NCBI GenBank assembly: GCA_019359075.1
Contig: JAHHIB010000074.1
Location: 1-44,320 of the forward strand
Origin: Kalymmatonema hyalinum WJT4-NPBG1
GTDB lineage: Bacteria > Cyanobacteriota > Cyanobacteriia > Cyanobacteriales > Nostocaceae
DNA length: 44,320 nucleotides
Direction of reading: 5' to 3'
The notes under the pieces are model-generated. The model did not search any database, had not been told where the DNA came from, and saw only the letters and a program-made list of their open reading frames with translations. Position 1 is the stretch's first letter. Every line of letters starts with the position of its first letter. Positions 196-38,619 of the stretch are shown here, one piece after another. A program made the position numbers and the translations under genes.

Positions 196-3100
196 TTACA
201 ATACTGATTTGCCCCGCCCAATCGGATCAAGCAATTGGACAATTGCCTGCACTAACTTCTCCGGTTCAACAGGCTTCGGGATATGCATCTGAAATCCGGC
301 AGCTAAGGCTTGTTGCTGGTTTATTTCTCCCGCATAAGCAGTCAGGGCGATCGCTTTAATAGTTCCTCCCTGTCGGGCTGACCATTTTCTGATTTGCCGA
401 ATCAGGGAATAGCCATCCATTTCTGGCATACCAATGTCACACAGTAGCAGATCGGGCACAGACTGATTCAAGAGGGCTAATGCCTGTGCTGCCGAAGCGG
501 CTGTCGTAACTTGTGCGCCAGATTGCGTCAGGATGAATGCTGCCAACTCCCGCATATCCGCATCATCATCCACAACCAATATCTGAATACCTGTTAGGTT
601 TGTTACAGTTTCTTTCTGGCTGTCATTAGAAGAAGATAACTTCTGCTCGACGACGTTTAACGGTAGCTGGACGGTGAATGTTGCCCCTAAATTTTGTCCC
701 AGACTATCTGCCTCAACGGTTCCTCCATGGAGTTCAGTGAAATGGCGAACGATCGCCAGCCCTAAGCCCAGCCCGCCGAATTTTCGTGTCGTTGTGCCAT
801 CTTCTTGCCGGAAGTATTCAAACACATAAGGCAAGAACTCTGGGGTGATGCCTTTGCCAGTGTCTTTGACTTGAATCTGAGCATACGTGCCAACTTGCTC
901 CAGTCGTACCTCGACTCGTCCTCTAGATGGTGTGAACTTCACGGCATTAGAAAGGAGGTTCCAGACAACCTGTTGTAGGCGGTTCGCATCGCCTGAAACG
1001 GTTCCTGAAATTGGGTTGAGTGTGGTCTGGATTTGAATGTTCTTGGCTTCTGCTGCCAGTCGTACCGTTTCTAGTGCTGCTTCAATTGTTGCAGCTAAAT
1101 TCACGATCGCAACGTTTAACGTCATTTTTCCTTGGAGGATGCGCGACACATCCAACAAATCCTCAATCAGTTGCGCTTGCAGCTTGGCGTTGCGCTCGAT
1201 TGTTTCCAGGGCTTGGTCAACTTTTGTGGCGTCTAGCCGCTTACTTCGCAGTATTGTTGTCCAGCCCAGAATCGGATTAAGGGGCGATCGCAATTCGTGG
1301 GACAGTACAGCGAGAAATTCGTCTTTAACTCGGTTGGCGGATTCTGCTTTGGCGCGATCGCGTTGAGCTACTCGGTATAACTGAGCGTTATCGATCGCCA
1401 ACGAAGCACGGCGAGCCAGTTCCTCTGCTAGTTGCAAATCGGTTGAATCGTATTGTAGTCCAGACTCAGCTGAAATAAAGGAAATGACACCTAGAATTCG
1501 TGTTTGGGTTCGTAGTGGCACACTCATCACAGATTTGAACCCAATCTGGCGCAAAATTTCTAAATGTTCTGGATCACGGGCTGTTTGTACCAGCAATTCA
1601 TCTGGAATATCCGCTAACAAATCTGATTGCCCAGTCCGCAAAGTGAAGGCAGCACCGCGAGGCTCATCGGGATTGAGCGGATATTGATGTCTGATTTGGT
1701 GCGCCCATTGGAGTTTGGCAGGATCAGTGTGAGCTACGGCAATCTGCTCGATTGAACCATCTTTTTCAACCATGTCTACTGTACACCAATCTGCCAACTC
1801 AGGTACGGAAAGCTCTGCCACTCGCTCCAGGGTGGTTTGATAATCGAGCGAAGAGGCAAGGACTGCGCTCGCCTCCGCAAGAAAGCTTTGGGCACGCTCT
1901 AACCGTACTTGCTCTGTCACGTCTACAACATACACTAAAACGTCTTCTACCTGATGGTTTGAGTTCGTTGTCGGAAGATAGTAAACGTTGTAGTAACCGG
2001 GAGTGCGATCGTTGCGTCCGGGAACATTCACCGCAAAGTTTGGTGAAATGAAGGGATTACCTGTGGTGTAAATTTGATGAAATACTTCAACTATCTGTGG
2101 ATCGGATTGACCAAAGAGTTCAGCAATTGAATGTCCTAAGTGTTGCTCTCGAGTTAATCCGTTGATTTGGGCTAATGCTTCATTAATGGCGATAAATCGC
2201 TGCTGAGTATCTAACAGCGCAATTCCAACCGGAGAAGTTTCAAAAATAGTTGCCAGTTGGCGCTGTGCGGCTTCGACTTGAGCACGAGCAAGTCGTTCTC
2301 GTTCTAGCAATTGTTCCCGTTCCTGTTCAGCCAGCTTGCGTTCTGTGATGTCAATGACAACGCCAATCATGCGTGTAGGCTGTTCTTCTGCATTGTAGGT
2401 AAATTTTCCTCTCGCTTCTGTCCAATGAATGGAGCCATCCGCCCAAAGTGTTCGATATTCGTGGTGATACTCCCTTCTCTTGAGCATCGCTTGTTGAAGT
2501 GCGACTTCTGTTTGAGCTAAGTCATCTGGATGAACGCTCTTAACCCAGAGTTCATAGCTTGGTTTGCACTCGTTTGGTTGAAGTCCCATGATGGCGAAGT
2601 GACCATCTGACCAGGTTACCGTATTGATCTGCATATCCCAGTCCCACGTTCCCATACGTCCGACCATCAACGCCAATTGCAACCGAGCTTTGCTTTGCCG
2701 CAATTCCTCTTCTGCGCGCGATCGCTCCACGGCTAACCAGGTTTGCTCGGCAATTTGCTCCATCAGTGCCACATCATCTTGTGTCCAGTGGCGAGGAGAA
2801 ACATGGTGCAACACAAACAGCGCTACAAACCGCCCTTTCTTCACCAAGGGAACACACAACAGAGATTTTGTTTGAATGGCGTCAAAGGCAGCAACGCCAA
2901 CTCCAGCAGTCCGAGGATCAACATCAACATCATCCACAACGATTGTTTTGCCCTGCTTGAGTTCAGCAATGATTTCAGGACCAAAGGAATTCATGTGGTG
3001 ACTACCAGCCACGCTGATGACACCATTGCAAAAATCGCGATCGACGATGACGTACTCCTGCGTGGAATCAATTTCACCGTAGGTACAGCGAGTCACTTGG

Positions 3101-5871
3101 AAGTGTTGCCCTGTCGCACGAACAACCTGCCACATGATTTCTTTCGGGTCTTGAATGGCACGAATCGCGTCATTCAATTCGATCAGGAATTGCTGTTGTC
3201 TCTCCTTGTGTTGAAGATTTTCGAGCAGTTGCTCAATTTGTTGCCTTGCCCGCACTTGTTCGGTGACTTCAATGTTATAAATCAAAACTCCTTGAATTGT
3301 TCCCTCAGCATCCCGCCAAGCCGGAAAGACGCAGTTGAAAAATGCCTCTTCCAACACACCATCGCCGTTCCGATCCCAGTAGGTGGGCGACTCATCCCGA
3401 ATGAACGTTTCTCCCGTGCGGTAAACTTGCTCGAGCACGTCAAAGTAAATTTGCCCCTCTAGCTCTGGGAAAACATCGCGCATCGGTTTGCCGATAATGT
3501 CTGGAGTCCGCCCAACCAGTTGTAGATAGGTAGGATTAGCAAATTCATACACAAGATCGGGACCTGTCACAATTCCAATCATGGCAGGGAACTGCATCAG
3601 GATATCATGCAACCGCTGGCGTTCGGTTTCTGCTTCCACTCGGGCAGCCTGTTCTCGTTTTAAAAGGCATTCCCTCCGGGTGCGTAGCATCTCGCGCTCT
3701 GCTTCAATTTGTTTGCGCTCTGTGATATCGACCGAAACGCCAATCATGCGAACTCCCCGTCCAGTCGCATCGAGATAAACTCGTCCCTGGCTGTTGAGCC
3801 AGCGCACAATGCCGTCTGGATCAATCACCCGGTACTCGTGGTTGTAGGACAGCTCTCCTGTAATTGCCCGTTGCGCCGCTTGTATCACCCGTTGTCGATC
3901 GTCTGGATGAATGACCGCAAAAAAGTCTTCTGCCGTCCCTACTTGAACGCCCCAAACTTCTAGGGCATTAGCAGAACACACCACGCGATTGGTTTGCAAA
4001 TCCATATCCCATCCAACTATCTGCGCTGCTGCAAGTGCCAGCCGCAGGCGCTCTTCACTCTCTCGTAATGCCCGCTCAACCAGTTTGTAATCGGTAACAT
4101 CGCGAGCAATACTCAGTACGGTTTCAACAGAGCCATCACTTGCAAATTCAGGGACGATACGCGCCTGATACCATCGAAGACCTTTTGGAGTCGGAAAACT
4201 AAATTCAATAATCTGTTCCTGATCTGTTGCAAAAACCTGCCGCAAACAGTCATTCCAAATGCTGTTGATGTCTTCTGGCATTCCTAGCTCGGCATTAGTC
4301 TTACCAATAAATTGCTCTGATGGAATCCCCGTTGCCAGTTCTACAGAAGGGCTGACATAAAGGTGGCGAAACTCTGCATCCATTCGGCTAATAATATCTG
4401 GGGCATTTTCCGCCATTATTTGGAACTGTTGCTCTCGCTGCCGCAGTTCTGATTCCAATCGTTTGCGCTCTGTTAGGTCAATTAAAAATCCTATTCCTAA
4501 ATCGTCTGCTCCTCCCAGGTAGGCAGTTCCAATCAAGACGGGAACACGAGTGCCGTCTTTACGAATGTATTCTTTTTCAAACGGCGCATGGCTGCCGATT
4601 TGCTTCATCTGTGCCATTGCTTGCTGGTCTAAATCCCGAAATTCCGGCGGAGTAATTTCAAGGAAGTTTACAGCTCCAGATAAAACTTCTTGGCGCGTAT
4701 AACCTAAAGCAGCTAGCCAAACGTCGTTGACTTCTAAAATATTGCCTTGAAAATCGCCAATAATAATGCCAATGAGATTCGCATCGAATAAACTTCGTAG
4801 CCGAGATTCACTTTCACGTAACGCTTGCTCTACAAGTTTGCGCTCAGTTACATCCTGAAAAACGACAACAGCTGCAACAATCTGCCCCCGGTTATCTAAA
4901 ATTGGTGCTGAGTTCACATTGATGAAAATGTGGCTACCGTCTTCCCGGTGTAGCTTGATTTCTTCATTAGAAACCACTTCACCTGTCCGAAGCGATCGCG
5001 CCAACGGATACTCATCAGGTGCGTAGATCTGTCCATCGCAGCGAAGGGCTTCAAATGGAATAATAGGTGCATATTCTTCAAGCTCAAGCGACTGTTCATA
5101 GCCGTACCCGACAATCTGTTTGGCTTGTTCGTTAGTCAGAACCAATTTGCCAGATGCGGCATCCGCAATCATCACACCAGCAGGCATTTGTCGTAAAACG
5201 GCTTCAAACCGGGTGCGTTCAGTTTCAAGCTCTTGCAGTAACTGCTCCCGCTCTGCTTCAGCCTGCTTGCGCTCTGTGACATCACGAAAATAAACCGCTA
5301 TCCCCTCAGCAGACGGGTAGGCATTCACTTCTAACCAACGCTGAACAGGCTCCCCAAATTCTTCCCAGGAAACTGGCACCTGCTGTGCCATTGCCCGATG
5401 CAGTTCTCGGTATGCTATTTTGCCCACCTGTTCGGGAAACACCTGGTTCCAAACGTGTTTTCCAATCAGTTCTTCTGGCGTTTTGTGCAGAATTCCAGCC
5501 GCCGCCCGATTCACGTAGGTGTAGTGCCAATTGTCATCAAAGGCAACAAAAGCATCCGTAATGCTTTCCAGGATTATTGCCACCTGGCGTTCAGCTTCTT
5601 GAGCTGCGATGAGTTGAGCGTGCTGTTGCTCAATGATGCATTCTTGTGGCAAAGCGTTTTGAGCATTTGCCCCCGGAACATTGGCATTGAGATGTTGTTG
5701 ATTCCCAAGACTGCGGGCAAAGTGTTCAATCACTTCAGAACGAGAAATTCCTCGCTTGTGAGCCTCCTCGTCGAGCGATCGCCACGCTGTACTAGTAAGA
5801 GATAGGCTAACTCGTCGTTTCGTTTCTGAGTCCCAATTGTTCACAAACTTACCAGTGGCGTCGCGCTTCAT
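196..5871 (-). CDS. Multi-PAS/GAF hybrid histidine kinase with N-terminal ribbon-helix-helix-like segment
   Basis: A cytosolic sensor kinase of 1891 residues with no membrane segment visible. Order by eye: a ribbon-helix-helix-like segment (about 15-55, with ISRSEVIEHFA), six PAS domains (about 95-890), GAF (about 905-1065), two more PAS (about 1070-1335), a second GAF (about 1340-1500), HisKA with the phospho-acceptor His in SHELRSPLNP, an HATPase domain with DTGKGI and GLGLGLAIV, and a C-terminal receiver with ILVVDDD and the Asp in LLCDIGMPEMDGY. PAS repeats end in the usual DxTERK linkers. It should autophosphorylate and pass phosphate to its own receiver; no separate response regulator lies next to it. 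It is divergent from the ocp gene with 623 bp between. The signal sensed is unknown. Kinase identity is secure; PAS boundaries are approximate. Confidence 0.95.
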   Translation of the reverse strand: MKRDATGKFVNNWDSETKRRVSLSLTSTAWRSLDEEAHKRGISRSEVIEHFARSLGNQQHLNANVPGANAQNALPQECIIEQQHAQLIAAQEAERQVAIILESITDAFVAFDDNWHYTYVNRAAAGILHKTPEELIGKHVWNQVFPEQVGKIAYRELHRAMAQQVPVSWEEFGEPVQRWLEVNAYPSAEGIAVYFRDVTERKQAEAEREQLLQELETERTRFEAVLRQMPAGVMIADAASGKLVLTNEQAKQIVGYGYEQSLELEEYAPIIPFEALRCDGQIYAPDEYPLARSLRTGEVVSNEEIKLHREDGSHIFINVNSAPILDNRGQIVAAVVVFQDVTERKLVEQALRESESRLRSLFDANLIGIIIGDFQGNILEVNDVWLAALGYTRQEVLSGAVNFLEITPPEFRDLDQQAMAQMKQIGSHAPFEKEYIRKDGTRVPVLIGTAYLGGADDLGIGFLIDLTERKRLESELRQREQQFQIMAENAPDIISRMDAEFRHLYVSPSVELATGIPSEQFIGKTNAELGMPEDINSIWNDCLRQVFATDQEQIIEFSFPTPKGLRWYQARIVPEFASDGSVETVLSIARDVTDYKLVERALRESEERLRLALAAAQIVGWDMDLQTNRVVCSANALEVWGVQVGTAEDFFAVIHPDDRQRVIQAAQRAITGELSYNHEYRVIDPDGIVRWLNSQGRVYLDATGRGVRMIGVSVDITERKQIEAEREMLRTRRECLLKREQAARVEAETERQRLHDILMQFPAMIGIVTGPDLVYEFANPTYLQLVGRTPDIIGKPMRDVFPELEGQIYFDVLEQVYRTGETFIRDESPTYWDRNGDGVLEEAFFNCVFPAWRDAEGTIQGVLIYNIEVTEQVRARQQIEQLLENLQHKERQQQFLIELNDAIRAIQDPKEIMWQVVRATGQHFQVTRCTYGEIDSTQEYVIVDRDFCNGVISVAGSHHMNSFGPEIIAELKQGKTIVVDDVDVDPRTAGVGVAAFDAIQTKSLLCVPLVKKGRFVALFVLHHVSPRHWTQDDVALMEQIAEQTWLAVERSRAEEELRQSKARLQLALMVGRMGTWDWDMQINTVTWSDGHFAIMGLQPNECKPSYELWVKSVHPDDLAQTEVALQQAMLKRREYHHEYRTLWADGSIHWTEARGKFTYNAEEQPTRMIGVVIDITERKLAEQEREQLLERERLARAQVEAAQRQLATIFETSPVGIALLDTQQRFIAINEALAQINGLTREQHLGHSIAELFGQSDPQIVEVFHQIYTTGNPFISPNFAVNVPGRNDRTPGYYNVYYLPTTNSNHQVEDVLVYVVDVTEQVRLERAQSFLAEASAVLASSLDYQTTLERVAELSVPELADWCTVDMVEKDGSIEQIAVAHTDPAKLQWAHQIRHQYPLNPDEPRGAAFTLRTGQSDLLADIPDELLVQTARDPEHLEILRQIGFKSVMSVPLRTQTRILGVISFISAESGLQYDSTDLQLAEELARRASLAIDNAQLYRVAQRDRAKAESANRVKDEFLAVLSHELRSPLNPILGWTTILRSKRLDATKVDQALETIERNAKLQAQLIEDLLDVSRILQGKMTLNVAIVNLAATIEAALETVRLAAEAKNIQIQTTLNPISGTVSGDANRLQQVVWNLLSNAVKFTPSRGRVEVRLEQVGTYAQIQVKDTGKGITPEFLPYVFEYFRQEDGTTTRKFGGLGLGLAIVRHFTELHGGTVEADSLGQNLGATFTVQLPLNVVEQKLSSSNDSQKETVTNLTGIQILVVDDDADMRELAAFILTQSGAQVTTAASAAQALALLNQSVPDLLLCDIGMPEMDGYSLIRQIRKWSARQGGTIKAIALTAYAGEINQQQALAAGFQMHIPKPVEPEKLVQAIVQLLDPIGRGKSVL

Positions 5872-7526: not shown

Positions 7527-7554
7527 CTTAGGGCGCAGAGCGCTGCGCCCTAAG
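7527..7554. terminator. Perfect 12-bp hairpin between convergent ocp and doc
   Basis: Arms CTTAGGGCGCAG (7527-7538) and CTGCGCCCTAAG (7543-7554) pair perfectly around a 4-base loop. It overlaps the doc stop codon and lies about 65 bases after the ocp stop. There is no T-run on either side, so factor-independent termination is not certain. It belongs with a GC-rich repeat patch starting near 7486. Confidence 0.5.
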
Positions 7555-7939
7555 GGGCGATCGCCTTCTCCAAACAACCCGCCAAATCTGACTTGCTCAT
7601 TTGGCTTTGGGCAACCTGCATCACCAGGTCATAAGCTTGCTCATTCGTCAGATTGAGGGAATAGCCATTCAACCGCAAAAATGTATCCATCACTGCAAAC
7701 GCCGTGCGTTTGTTACCGTCGATAAACGGATGGTTCATTGCCAGGTGATAAAGGTAGGTTGCTGCTTGCTCATGAATAGTGGGATGCAGCAGCTCACCTG
7801 CAAATGTAGCCTGGGGTTGAGCAAGGGCAGATTCCAGCAAGCCCTCATCTCGGATGCCTGGAGTCCCTCCAAACTTCTCAATTTGTCTGGTATGAATCTT
7901 CAGAACTGTCGTTTGGTTGAGAAAATCAGGAGTTGGCAA
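7550..7939 (-). CDS. doc: Doc-type death-on-curing toxin (Fic fold)
   Basis: The protein of 129 residues carries the Doc/Fic signature HPFIDGNKRTA at about residues 69-79, close to the Doc consensus with K where AMP-transferring Fic proteins have G-R. Doc enzymes phosphorylate elongation factor Tu and stop translation. Family length is 120-135, so it appears complete. Its start overlaps the end of the upstream antitoxin gene by 14 bases, the usual arrangement of a co-translated toxin-antitoxin pair. This is a chromosomal module at the edge of an accessory islet. Confidence 0.9.
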   Translation of the reverse strand: MPTPDFLNQTTVLKIHTRQIEKFGGTPGIRDEGLLESALAQPQATFAGELLHPTIHEQAATYLYHLAMNHPFIDGNKRTAFAVMDTFLRLNGYSLNLTNEQAYDLVMQVAQSQMSKSDLAGCLEKAIAP

Positions 7940-8117
7940 GGCGACGGTAAACCTCCTCTCTCTCCCGTTCTGAGTCCAGGTATACCTGCCACACGCGGTT
8001 TTCTAAGTTGGATTGCTGCTCCGCTTTTAGAGAACGCACAAACTCAAGTACCTCCTGCAAGGCAGAATCTGGCACTTGGTCAAGTTCCTGAAGGAGTTGT
8101 TCTTTGATTGTCATCAT
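7926..8117 (-). CDS. Small antitoxin partner of Doc
   Basis: A 63-residue acidic, helical protein beginning MMTIKEQLLQELDQ. The start at 8117 (or 8114) was chosen over an upstream in-frame one at 8186, because the extra 23 residues are basic and unlike the family, and a weak AGG precedes the tandem ATG. The pattern of a leucine-rich helix followed by a charged C-terminus (DSEREREEVYRRLANS) fits small DUF2281-like antitoxins found beside Doc in cyanobacteria. The C-terminus probably inserts against the toxin. Assignment rests on size, sequence style and the 14-base overlap with doc. Confidence 0.75.
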   Translation of the reverse strand: MMTIKEQLLQELDQVPDSALQEVLEFVRSLKAEQQSNLENRVWQVYLDSEREREEVYRRLANS

Positions 8118-8295
8118 CCTAAAGTTGAAAACGTTGAAAACACGGCTTTTTTTATTTTGCAACTTCCAAGGGTTACTGCACGACATGAGCGTCCACTTGA
8201 ATATTATGACAGTGTTACTGCTTGAGAAGTTAGGCGTATAGTTATCAGTGATAAAGCGTCACAATAAAGACTGATAATAAATTAAAGATTTAATC

Positions 8296-8541
8296 ATGGT
8301 TCAGGCTACAGAGCATATATACATTGTCAGGGACAACGCAATCCTAGGTGGTGAACCTATTATTCGCGAAACACGCACACCCGTGAGAGCTATTGTGGAA
8401 ACCTGGCGGATGGGGGCTGCACCTGAGGAAATCCTGCAAGGGTTACCACATTTGACTCTGGCTCAAGTGTTTGATGCTTTGAGCTACTATCTGGATCACC
8501 AAAGTGAAATCAACAGCTACATTGAGCGTAACCGAATTTAG
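8296..8541 (+). CDS. DUF433 family protein (antitoxin-like), orphan
   Basis: An 81-residue protein with the DUF433 pattern GGEPIIRETRTPVRAIVE followed by an HTH-like stretch in which a helix EEILQGLPHLT leads to AQVFDALSYYLDH. DUF433 proteins usually act as antitoxins/DNA-binding regulators paired with a PIN-like DUF5615 toxin encoded immediately downstream. Here the 102 bases up to the RT stop hold no such toxin, so the gene is an orphan or a remnant of a lost module. It is transcribed away from the Doc pair; the two starts are 178 bases apart. Confidence 0.85.
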   Translation: MVQATEHIYIVRDNAILGGEPIIRETRTPVRAIVETWRMGAAPEEILQGLPHLTLAQVFDALSYYLDHQSEINSYIERNRI

Positions 8542-8643
8542 AAAAGCTGATTGATTCCGTATATAGCAAACGCTATTATGAATTTCTGAGATTTGGAGAT
8601 TCAGTCATTGAGCTTGACAGATTTGGCAGTGCTAGTTATACCA

Positions 8644-10668
8644 CTACACAAGGAAGTCTAGACATTTGCCCACGTGTTCGTAGTAATCCAAATATTCTTC
8701 TCGAGTAACTTCCCATGCCATGCTACTATCAGATCCAGGATGTGAAACACTGTTTGAGTTTCTACGATCAAATAAGTTTCTTATCTTTATGCATATTTCA
8801 TGCGGAACGCTTTTAGAATAAAGAAATTTGACTACATCGTTAACATCATAGTCTTTTTTATTTGCTTTCTCGTGTTTTATGCATAAAGCATGTATTTCAT
8901 TAACTAGGTGATTAAGTGCCACAGAATAGGAACCAGTTCTTTCGCTTAAAACCCTTAATCGAGTTTGCTCAATTACATCGGGCATTTCTGATATTTTTCT
9001 CATTTGCATACAGGTCAAACCATAATATCCAGGTTTATCACAATTTAATTGTGCATCCATAAAAATATTAACAATATCTTGCATATGAATATTTTCTTTA
9101 AGTTTTAAGAGTAAATCATCGTCGCTAAAATCAGTTTGACAAAGAAATTTAATAATTAAATCAGCATCACTTGTAGTAATGATTCTTTTTTGTAAATAAA
9201 ATTTTTTAAAGTTTTTTATTGCTGTTTCATCGGTTAGAAGTATAACTAAAATTTCCAGGGGTTGGACTTTAATTAGATCAAAGTTAAAATCTTTGAATAT
9301 CTCCTTAATTTTTTTCTTGTTTACAGGTTTATCAAGTATCTGTTCTACTCTCTTATCAAAGACTTCTTGAAGAATTTCTTCTTGAGCTGATCTCTCTCCT
9401 ATAAAATAATCTTCTACTCTTGATTTTTTAATATTTCTTAACTCTTGAAATATTTTATTGAGTTTATCTTGTGGGTTCTTAATAGTCTGGTCAATATTTT
9501 TACTTTTATCCTGATCTTCTTGGTTCTCTCGATTAAGCTTGATATATTCGTCGCTTGGTGATAATTTTCGTATGTTTCTAAGAAGTTCTTCCTTCTCTTC
9601 ATTTCTTGCTAAACGGTACAATCTTGTTTTTAGATTTAACTTAAGACTTAGCTTGCTGTACAAAACTTCTGCAATTTGAGATCCTATTAAATGAAGAAAT
9701 ACTCCTTGACGCTCCTGTTCAATGCCCTGCCTAAAAGTTATTGAAATATATATGTCATCGGTGTAACGAATAATTTTATGTGAATCTATAACATCTCTAT
9801 TTTTTTTCAAAATGTCATCTATGAATAAGTCCCCAAATACCAAATATAAATATCCAATAAAACTAGATATTATATTGTTATCTGATTGAGGAATACCAGA
9901 TTTGCCATTTGCTATAGATTGAAAGAAGCAAATAATTTGCTCTCTTGTAAAAAGGTCATAAGCCATATTCACTTGCACACTGGGTTTGATAAAGATATGT
10001 AAAAGATGCAATAGTCTTGGCATGGACAACTCATTAAAATAATTCTCAATATCAAGTTTGAGAATCACTTTATCTTGTGTTTCAGAAATAGTTTCTTCCT
10101 TGATTTTTGATTTGAATAGTTCATGAAAATTTCGGTAATAAATGTTTTTAGATGTAATTTGGATTTTATCCTTCTAACTAAGATTACCACCATAAAAAGC
10201 TTCTATCGTTTCTATTTTTTTGTAGTTTTCAACTAAAAACTCTTGTGAGAGCTTCAGTAAGTAAAGCCCAACGGCATAGTATATTGTTCGCATTGGATAT
10301 GTAAAAAATTTATAGTCTCTAAGCCCGAGACCTGGTTTAGGTATAACATAAGAAAATACAGCAAATTCTTTCTTTAAGCCGTAAAAGAGACTACTTTGTA
10401 TTTTTGTCTTAAAATATTCTTGTGAATCAAGATTTAAACACGCTACATCAAGCTTTTCATAGTCAAAAATACTTAAAGTATTATAATGTCTATTAGTTTG
10501 CTTCTGTTTAATTTGAAAATTTAAAAGTTTTAGAGCATCTTGCCAATATTCATATTTTATGAAGTAGCCAAGTTGCGTTTTAATTCTATCTGTCATGCGT
10601 GTTGGTCTAATAGGACTGAATTCTCTAAGGTTTCTAGGGTCTATAGGATAATTTCTGAAATCAAGCAA
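8644..10668 (-). pseudogene. AbiA-like defence reverse transcriptase with C-terminal HEPN motif, split by an in-frame TAG
   Basis: The reading frame runs from a TTG at 10668 to 8644 with one internal stop, TAG at 10176-10174 (codon 165). Both sides are in the same frame and the bridge (codons 166-200) reads as RT-like protein. Motifs: VIPKPGLGLRDYKF (early RT region), FYGGNL just before the stop, LKLDIENYF with catalytic Asp206, GIPQSDN (about 258-264), and the catalytic YTDD at 302-305. After a long helical middle, the C-terminus has R636-x6-H643 in RRNSNSVSHPG, a HEPN-nuclease-like motif. This order matches the Abi/UG defence RTs, notably AbiA. The downstream part has a GTG at 10068 but no Shine-Dalgarno and lacks the early RT motifs. 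The gene is visibly AT-rich against its neighbours, suggesting transfer. A nonsense-mutated gene is most likely; readthrough or a sequencing error remain possible. Confidence 0.8.
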
Positions 10669-10752
10669 TTTTATTCCAGCATCTCTAGCATCACAGAACG
10701 TATGCCCTCAGTTAAATAGGATAATTTCTGAAATCAAGCAACTTTATTCCAG
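10643..10752. repeat. 37-bp direct repeat of the RT gene 5' end, 73 bp apart
   Basis: Positions 10643-10679 and 10716-10752 are identical at 36 of 37 bases (t/c difference at the 28th base of the repeat). The inner copy covers the TTG start and the first residues LLDFRNYPI; the outer copy repeats the same start and residues and then runs into TAA. It looks like a 73-bp tandem duplication at the gene start that has since diverged in the spacer. Confidence 0.85.
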
Positions 10753-10837
10753 GATACTCATTTATTGTAAATGTTTATACGTTAACATTGGCTTTAAGCG
10801 AGGTAGGGTGGGCTATGCCCACCACAACCTTTTCACC

Positions 10838-11023
10838 TTACACCTTAAACTTCTCCGTAATCCGCTGCATCGCCTCCTGTACATTCTCCCGACTATTAAA
10901 AGCTGAAATACGGAAGTAGTCTTCACCCGCTGCACCAAAACCTGAACCGGGCGTACCTACGACATTCATGGTGTGCAGTAACTTATCGAAGAAATCCGAA
11001 CTGGACAAACGATTGGGCGTTTT
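10838..11023 (-). pseudogene. Relic of a second dapL gene: C-terminal 61 codons only
   Basis: Translation of this stretch matches residues 351-411 of the intact DapL encoded just to the right: 52 of 61 residues agree, including [14 protein letters not shown] and [13 protein letters not shown]. The match stops at KTP; the open frame continues a further 27 codons upstream to 11104 but that part is unrelated to DapL. All the active-site lysine region is missing, so it cannot be an enzyme. The divergence shows this is not a fresh duplication. It may be the remains of a second dapL copy or the old 3' end displaced by an insertion. Confidence 0.88.
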
Positions 11024-11202
11024 CAGTTCCCGTGAAAAGCCACGTCTGGGAAGAGCGATCGCCATTTGTCCAACACCAATAATTATGGTAGTAATTACTC
11101 TCACTAAATAGTATAAACTTTTGTTTTTTGTACGGTTGGTGCGAAAAGCTATAGGAATTACTTAATAAATATATTAAGTCAATTCTTATACCTATAAGAA
11201 AT

Positions 11203-37499: not shown

Positions 37500-37532
37500 A
37501 TTATTGTACAGCTTTATTGTGTACAATAATAT
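37498..37532. promoter_or_regulatory. Palindromic operator candidate between copG-like gene and tnpB
   Basis: ATATTATTGTACA (37498-37510) and TGTACAATAATAT (37520-37532) are perfect 13-base arms around a 9-base spacer. The palindrome fills the divergent gap, includes the first two bases of the copG-like start codon and ends one base before the tnpB ATG. TACAAT within each arm resembles a -10 box facing its own gene; if used, both mRNAs would be nearly leaderless. No Shine-Dalgarno fits in the space. Confidence 0.8.
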
Positions 37533-37533
37533 C

Positions 37534-38619
37534 ATGAAAACACTGAAGTTTAAGTTGTACTCACACAAGCGCAATAGATACCTCAAGCAGTCAATTAACG
37601 CTTCTGGGGTAATTTATAACCATTGCATTGCCCTTCACAAACGGTACTACCGAATGTGGGGTAAACACTTGAGTTGTACGAAACTTCAATCTCATATTGC
37701 CAAGTTGCGGAAACATAACCCATTTTGGCAGTTGGTAGGTTCTCAAGCAGTCCAGGATATCTGTCAACGCATTGAGAAAGCATACCAATTGTTTTTTAAG
37801 CACAATAAGAAGGGGGTTCGTCCACCAGGGTTCAAAAAAGTTAAGAAGTATAAATCATTCACCTTAAAGCAAGCAGGGTACAAGTTTTTAGGTGGTAATA
37901 GGGTCAAGATTGGGAATCGGGTTTATCAATTTTGGAAATCTAGGGAGATAGAAGGAAAAGTCAAAACACTAACCATCAAGCGCACACCATTAGGTGAATT
38001 GTTTATGGTTGTTGTAGTTGACGACACACCTGAACCAGAAATCAAATTCACGACTAGTAGAATAGCGGGCTTTGACTTTGGCTTGCGGGTATTTCTCACT
38101 TGCTCGGATGGCTCCAGCATTGAATCTCCTCAATTCCTCAAGCAGTCTCTCAACAGTATCAAGAAAGCGAGTAGACAGCACTCAAAAAAGTTAAAAGGTT
38201 CATCCAATCGGGAGCGAGCCAGAAAGAATCTGGTACGCAAGCATGAGGATGTTTCCAACCGAAGACGTGATTGGTTTTGGAAGTTAGCCCACGACCTAAC
38301 CAATAAGTTTGATGTGCTGTGCTTTGAAACACTCAATCTCAAAGGAATGCAGCGTCTTTGGGGACGCAAGATATCAGACTTGGCTTTGGGAGAGTTTTTG
38401 CAAATTCTGGAGTGGATTGCCAAGAAAAAAGGGAAGCAAGTCGTATTTATAGATCAATGGTATCCGTCTAGTAAGACTTGTTCTAGTTGTGGATACGTTC
38501 TAGAAAGTCTCGATTTGTCCGTTAGGGAGTGGCGTTGTCCGTCCTGTCAGTCAGTGAACGGGAGGGACGAGAACGCAGCCAAGAATATTTGTGCAGTTGG
38601 GGCATCAACTGTTAGGTGA
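37534..38619 (+). CDS. tnpB: TnpB RNA-guided endonuclease
   Basis: A 361-residue TnpB, the ancestor-type of Cas12 nucleases, which cuts DNA guided by an RNA made from the element's right end. Order: N-terminal helical/WED region, then RuvC motif I with D181 (GFDFGLRVFL), motif II with E265 (LCFETLNLKGM), zinc ribbon C316-C319/C335-C338, and motif III with D345 (GRDENAAKNI). All three acidic catalytic residues and all four cysteines are present, so it may be active. The ATG at 37534 begins MKTLKFKLYSHKRN; an upstream start at 37504 would overlap the palindrome and was rejected. The stop lies about 50 bases before the right-end hairpin. Confidence 0.93.
   Translation: MKTLKFKLYSHKRNRYLKQSINASGVIYNHCIALHKRYYRMWGKHLSCTKLQSHIAKLRKHNPFWQLVGSQAVQDICQRIEKAYQLFFKHNKKGVRPPGFKKVKKYKSFTLKQAGYKFLGGNRVKIGNRVYQFWKSREIEGKVKTLTIKRTPLGELFMVVVVDDTPEPEIKFTTSRIAGFDFGLRVFLTCSDGSSIESPQFLKQSLNSIKKASRQHSKKLKGSSNRERARKNLVRKHEDVSNRRRDWFWKLAHDLTNKFDVLCFETLNLKGMQRLWGRKISDLALGEFLQILEWIAKKKGKQVVFIDQWYPSSKTCSSCGYVLESLDLSVREWRCPSCQSVNGRDENAAKNICAVGASTVR

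Follow-up and report, generated by a model that had tools for sequence, protein, structure and literature searches.

Does an abortive-infection-type gene that is closed by one in-frame amber codon represent a dead gene, an intact gene misread in the assembly, or a gene in which the stop has a function? We asked this of a locus in the window, i.e. the whole stretch of 44,320 nucleotides of Kalymmatonema hyalinum WJT4-NPBG1 DNA that was analysed. Translation of window:8644-10668 on the minus strand gives 675 positions, with a terminal TAG at 8646-8644 and a single internal stop, TAG at codon 165 (10176-10174). The open reading frames listed for this region are pieces of 164 and 474 residues, which lie, together with a 35-codon bridge, in the same frame. 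A sequence-only reading had described this arrangement, with reverse transcriptase (RT) motifs continuing across the TAG, an R-x6-H motif at the C-terminus and no other frame damage over 2025 bases, and our translation agrees on every point: FYGGNL precedes the stop, LKLDIENYF, GIPQ and RYTDD follow it, and the C-terminal region has RNSNSVSH (R-x6-H), while the frame is closed by the TAG at 10176-10174 alone. The features of the gene and its upstream region are as follows.

8644..10596, minus strand: AbiA-type RT-HEPN gene with one internal stop; probably begins at ATG 10596 and ends with TAG 8646-8644
10174..10176, minus strand: internal amber codon TAG, codon 141 counted from the ATG; Tyr/Phe in the 13 closer relatives aligned
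10177..10596, minus strand: 140-residue piece ahead of the stop, with none of the palm motifs that carry the catalytic aspartates, all of which follow the stop
8647..10173, minus strand: piece following the stop, with the RT palm (RYTDD), a helical region and, at the C-terminus, the HEPN-type motif RNSNSVSH
10643..10682, no strand: 40-nt direct repeat, copy 1; contains the TTG start of the sequence-only reading
10716..10755, no strand: second copy of the 40-nt direct repeat, 95% identical to the first

Searched singly, both open reading frame pieces match the PADLOC AbiA profile PDLC03741 (E 5.7e-20 before the stop and 4e-57 after it). A stop-tolerant search of the whole genome returned a single match to this profile, which includes one TAG and covers profile positions 2-590 of 595 (E 9.4e-81); a second AbiA match was absent at E 0.001. 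Because PDLC03741 is matched by each part separately and by the whole stretch, an AbiA-type frame spanning the TAG is more than chance, and the match across the stop supports the earlier placement of the gene close to AbiA. The proposed RT-HEPN architecture is likewise supported by the motifs. An RT-like palm with YxDD is present as RYTDD, with a Pfam RVT_1 match below the cut-off (21.7 of 29.6 bits); the R and H of RNSNSVSH are invariant in seven relatives, and the window protein gave no match to a Pfam HEPN domain. A working AbiA is expected to occupy one uninterrupted frame, which in the window gene is interrupted by the internal TAG; the gene is therefore a broken copy of AbiA and not a working member of the family.

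The start of the gene also had to be revised. The TTG at 10668 chosen in the sequence-only reading is probably wrong, as the start ATG of the relatives aligns with an ATG at 10596 (codon 25 of that frame); the TTG sits within a 40-nt repeat. Judged from this alignment, translation likely starts at ATG 10596, giving a gene of ~650 codons, of which the TAG is accordingly codon 141. The repeat itself is a direct one (10643-10682 and 10716-10755, 73 bases from start to start) placed just upstream of the gene; no further copy was found in the genome at E 0.001 and no role is evident.

The characterised protein with which the gene can be compared is Lactococcus lactis AbiA (PDB 8OZ7). The two share RYxDD and the HEPN motif (RNSNSVSH in the window, RNSNPVSH in Lactococcus), but the window gene, unlike Lactococcus AbiA, has an internal stop, and the two are distant in sequence, a profile of seven relatives missing 8OZ7 at E up to 10. 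PMC11077055 describes Lactococcus AbiA as a dimer that the HEPN domain keeps together and that carries out protein-primed, untemplated DNA synthesis; a section heading of that paper states that defence needs polymerase activity, and its abstract that defence may not depend on cell death. The same source reports no RNA degradation in vitro by the Lactococcus HEPN domain, despite its like motif, and an RNase role for the HEPN motif is therefore uncertain by analogy.

A structure model was built for an intact relative, the Sphaerospermopsis kisseleviana copy (L010), and not for the window protein. It is a poor model (mean pLDDT 51.5), for which the best PDB matches are the four chains of 8OZ7 (E 1.6e-7 over 594 columns, TM 0.26-0.28). 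Its C-terminal region has pLDDT 58-79 over residues 541-610 and under 50 at 614-629. The residue at the position of the window stop falls within two strands predicted to pair, 139-142 and 145-148; a resemblance of this pair to the fingers hairpin that PMC11077055 describes, along with DNA-stacking tyrosines, is only suggestive. These comparisons bear on the idea that the cyanobacterial version is a lineage of its own, which held in part: the cyanobacterial copies do form a group, at about 40-79% identity to L010, but they match the AbiA profile, and the poor L010 model points to Lactococcus AbiA as well.

We then compared the position of the stop among relatives. Of 39 other genomes in a relatives sample, 3 had matches; a phylum sample gave matches in 4 of 385 others, and a scan of genome contigs gave 6 loci, with overlap among the three. 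Searches with the part after the stop gave no match to plasmids and phages at E 1e-5 and none to viral contigs in one scan. An order-level profile search covered 388 genomes, with at most 3 candidates scored per genome. Among the matches listed, 17 span at least 540 of the 595 profile positions, amid many short RT-like matches, and stops lie inside only two of these 17, the window gene and the copy of another genome of the same family, G674; G332 and G129 each show a single TAG as well, but this is their terminal stop, as seen when coordinates are set against the open reading frames.

A first alignment showed Tyr at the stop column in 7 of 7 close relatives. In a wider alignment of 18 relatives, which leaves out the distant copies of G033, G161 and G566 and the second copy of G490, the column is aromatic in all 13 closer ones (9 Tyr and 4 Phe, counting a truncated copy, L014, and the broken G674 copy), while five distant relatives have Phe, Leu, Leu, Leu and Pro; none of the 18 has a stop there. 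Thus, the sequence-only reading's question of which residue homologues carry at codon 165 finds a clear answer in the closer relatives, and the TAG occupies a conserved position. The copies of Sphaerospermopsis kisseleviana (L010), Microcystis wesenbergii (L011), Cuspidothrix issatschenkoi (L012) and Candidatus Paraprochloron terpiosi (L013) illustrate the difference: they are 65-74% identical to the window gene after the stop and have the same motifs, but their genes are uninterrupted, and all four have a Tyr codon where the window gene has TAG. Their neighbouring open reading frames, compared as translations, look unlike those of the window.

The same alignments bear on whether the two pieces might be made separately and then assemble, the second starting from GTG 10068. 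The 474-residue open reading frame does begin just ahead of the first palm motif, as such a two-part gene would require. Against this, intact relatives have one frame across the point, the opposite of the separate genes that the sequence-only reading had named as evidence against a broken gene; the 105 bases from the stop to the GTG encode a conserved KNIYYRNFHE, which would be lost; and the only relative in two frames, that of G033, splits elsewhere, past the RT region. We regard a two-part gene as extremely unlikely.

If the gene is broken, how long has it been so? A codon branch model was fitted to the window gene and six full-length relatives, excluding the truncated L014 and dropping the stop column. 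After the stop, omega is 0.042 on the window branch versus 0.063 in the background, a difference that is not significant (p 0.30); omega=1 is rejected on the window branch (2dlnL 24.4), and the likelihood profile puts the upper bound between 0.08 and 0.10 (2dlnL 3.09 and 5.32). Before the stop, where there are only 141 codons, the window branch has an omega of 0.113, for which a value of 1 is not rejected (p 0.089), so that the comparison of dN/dS on the two sides suggested earlier comes to 0.113 versus 0.042. For the whole gene, the values are 0.053 on the window branch and 0.069 in the background. By rough arithmetic, the neutral share of the window branch is at most a few per cent. With a dS of about 1.0 to 1.3 this branch is long, and a short recent neutral phase at its tip would therefore stay invisible.

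A second test considered, for each sequence, the columns that are invariant across the other six. The window gene departs at 4 of 77 such columns before the stop and at 7 of 224 after it, which is within the spread of its six relatives (0-9 departures at 73-82 columns and 5-26 at 222-243 columns, respectively). Constraint after the stop thus looks like that of the relatives, and the stop is therefore recent or an assembly error, the pair of explanations (a very young pseudogene or a sequencing error) that the sequence-only reading had put forward for the gene.

As to the second of these, an assembly or sequencing error in a gene that is intact in the organism would account for a gene that looks under selection at all but one codon, and the genome holds no second AbiA copy for comparison. 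But the window genes that we listed by hand are open over long stretches (35 open reading frames over 34 kb, including the 3' part of AbiA; by eye), the flanking genes that were compared are equal or nearly equal in length to those of congeners, again by eye, and an erroneous consensus base that creates a stop by chance would be rare a priori. We therefore consider such an error unlikely. The window gene is probably a young pseudogene of a known AbiA-type phage-defence gene, stopped by a nonsense mutation. With no other frame damage and no relaxed selection, the case for decay is made from one codon.

We next examined the site in which the gene lies. Homology of the window to two congeners, G001 and G002, ends at 8554 and restarts at about 10833-10836, and the intervening cassette has a G+C of 31% versus 45% in the rest of the window. 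The site is made up as follows.

8555..10835, no strand: A+T-rich cassette, absent from the same site in the two congeners
10838..11104, minus strand: left flank of the cassette; open reading frame that carries a duplicate of the 3' end of the aminotransferase gene next to it, also in congener G001
8296..8541, plus strand: right flank; DUF433 gene, 81 residues versus 90 and 93 in the congeners

The aminotransferase gene beside the cassette is one that we take to be dapL-like; the duplicate at 10838-11104 is 85-86% identical to its 3' end and is a relic. On the other flank, the DUF5615 gene (Pfam) that adjoins DUF433 in G002 is unmatched within the first 20 kb of the window. Together with the DUF433 gene, a Fic gene adjoining a small gene that matches DUF2281 below threshold (7550-8186) makes up a set of toxin-antitoxin-like pieces beside the cassette.

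At the same site G001 has an intact gene of 1320 residues (L059:9171-13133) with weak, sub-threshold NACHT-type Pfam matches, and the encoded protein had no PADLOC match at E 0.001. G002 has the same NACHT-like gene (L058:4466-8428), with a single in-frame TGA at codon 1128 and the rest open. Thus, a gene closed by a single stop is found at this site in 2 of the 3 genomes of the genus compared, that of the window and G002. Since its content differs between the window and the congeners, the locus looks like a site of turnover of defence-like cassettes. Just within the left edge, both the window and G001 have short GTGGGCATNGCCCAC-type palindromes, and G002 has a similar sequence; that these help cassette exchange is a guess.

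Taken together, we propose that a single-gene AbiA-type defence cassette resides in a variable site beside the dapL-like gene, that it was probably acquired horizontally, as suggested by its low G+C and its absence in two congeners, and that a recent nonsense mutation at a conserved aromatic position would have inactivated it. Intact relatives may work like Lactococcus AbiA, as HEPN-held dimers that protect against phage through protein-primed, untemplated DNA synthesis. The window copy would yield only a 140-residue fragment lacking the polymerase active site and would hence provide no defence.

Could the TAG instead be translated under special conditions, for example with a suppressor tRNA brought by a phage that gates defence, as the sequence-only reading had suggested? 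Frame and sequence are conserved after the stop, and phages that recode stop codons are known in general. Programmed read-through should come with a suppressor tRNA or recoding element and with a stop conserved in relatives, and none of these was found. General recoding of TAG was rejected, this codon being the terminator of 12 of the 35 window genes listed by hand, AbiA included. A recoding structure in the RNA was rejected as well, the fold around the stop being ordinary and no better than that of shuffles (z -0.74).

There are no tRNA genes within the window. Genome-wide, 150 of 415 candidates were scored, giving 41 tRNA-family matches, of which ARAGORN called 40. None of the 40 has a CTA anticodon, and neither the one among them whose anticodon ARAGORN left unresolved nor the one uncalled match has CTA in its loop by eye. 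A pattern search for tRNAs with a CTA loop gave 13 matches, fewer than the reversed control (8 and 5 versus 10 and 7); ARAGORN calls tRNAs at only 2 of the 13, both ordinary (Ser and Arg). A suppressor tRNA was thus rejected by both family and pattern searches; with 150 of 415 candidates scored in a genome that is 95.45% complete, a missed one is possible. As a separate observation, locus L068 (G000:C111:5348-5493) contains two adjacent tRNA-like sequences with odd anticodon loops, one without a clear ARAGORN isotype and the other uncalled.

Also speaking against read-through are the lack of any stop at this column among the 18 aligned relatives and the parallel lesion in G002, which is TGA and not TAG. 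We therefore judge functional read-through very unlikely. A more elaborate form of it, in which the stop would keep AbiA silent until an infecting phage that carries an amber-suppressor tRNA, or that disturbs termination, switches defence on, is barely conceivable. Most likely, then, this is an ordinary defence gene that was recently inactivated, and no new mechanism is indicated.

Other copies of AbiA are also broken, none of them at the place of the window stop. In G674, an insert of ~105 bases (locus L084) brings three in-frame stops into the gene. Its ends are TATAGC...GCTATA-like, and elsewhere that genome has two more copies, 99-100% identical over 107 bases; owing to its inverted-type ends and these near-identical copies, the insert looks like a MITE insertion. 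The G674 gene is like the window gene in being broken ahead of the palm motifs with the remainder in frame, and unlike it in being broken by a recurring insert and not by a point change. The AbiA-like gene of G033, a genome that is 86% complete, has its RT and HEPN parts in two overlapping frames (L004/L005). In L014, from a Leptolyngbya MAG (2572-3531), the frame loses its homology close to the end of the contig, and DA replaces the catalytic DD. The breakage in G033 and L014 could be due to draft or MAG errors, that in G033 otherwise to a frameshift.

The window gene thus offers a clean snapshot of possible loss of a phage-defence gene, with one stop in an otherwise constrained gene, and in a congener this site is occupied by another defence-like gene, likewise stopped by one codon. 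A literature search joining anti-phage defense, in-frame stop codon and pseudogene found no match. Together, the intact, point-stopped, MITE-broken and frame-broken copies make up a natural AbiA set from which the rates of switch-off and replacement in cyanobacteria could be studied. Elsewhere in the window, a TnpB-like gene at 37504-38619 has OrfB_IS605 and Cas12f1-like TNB domains.
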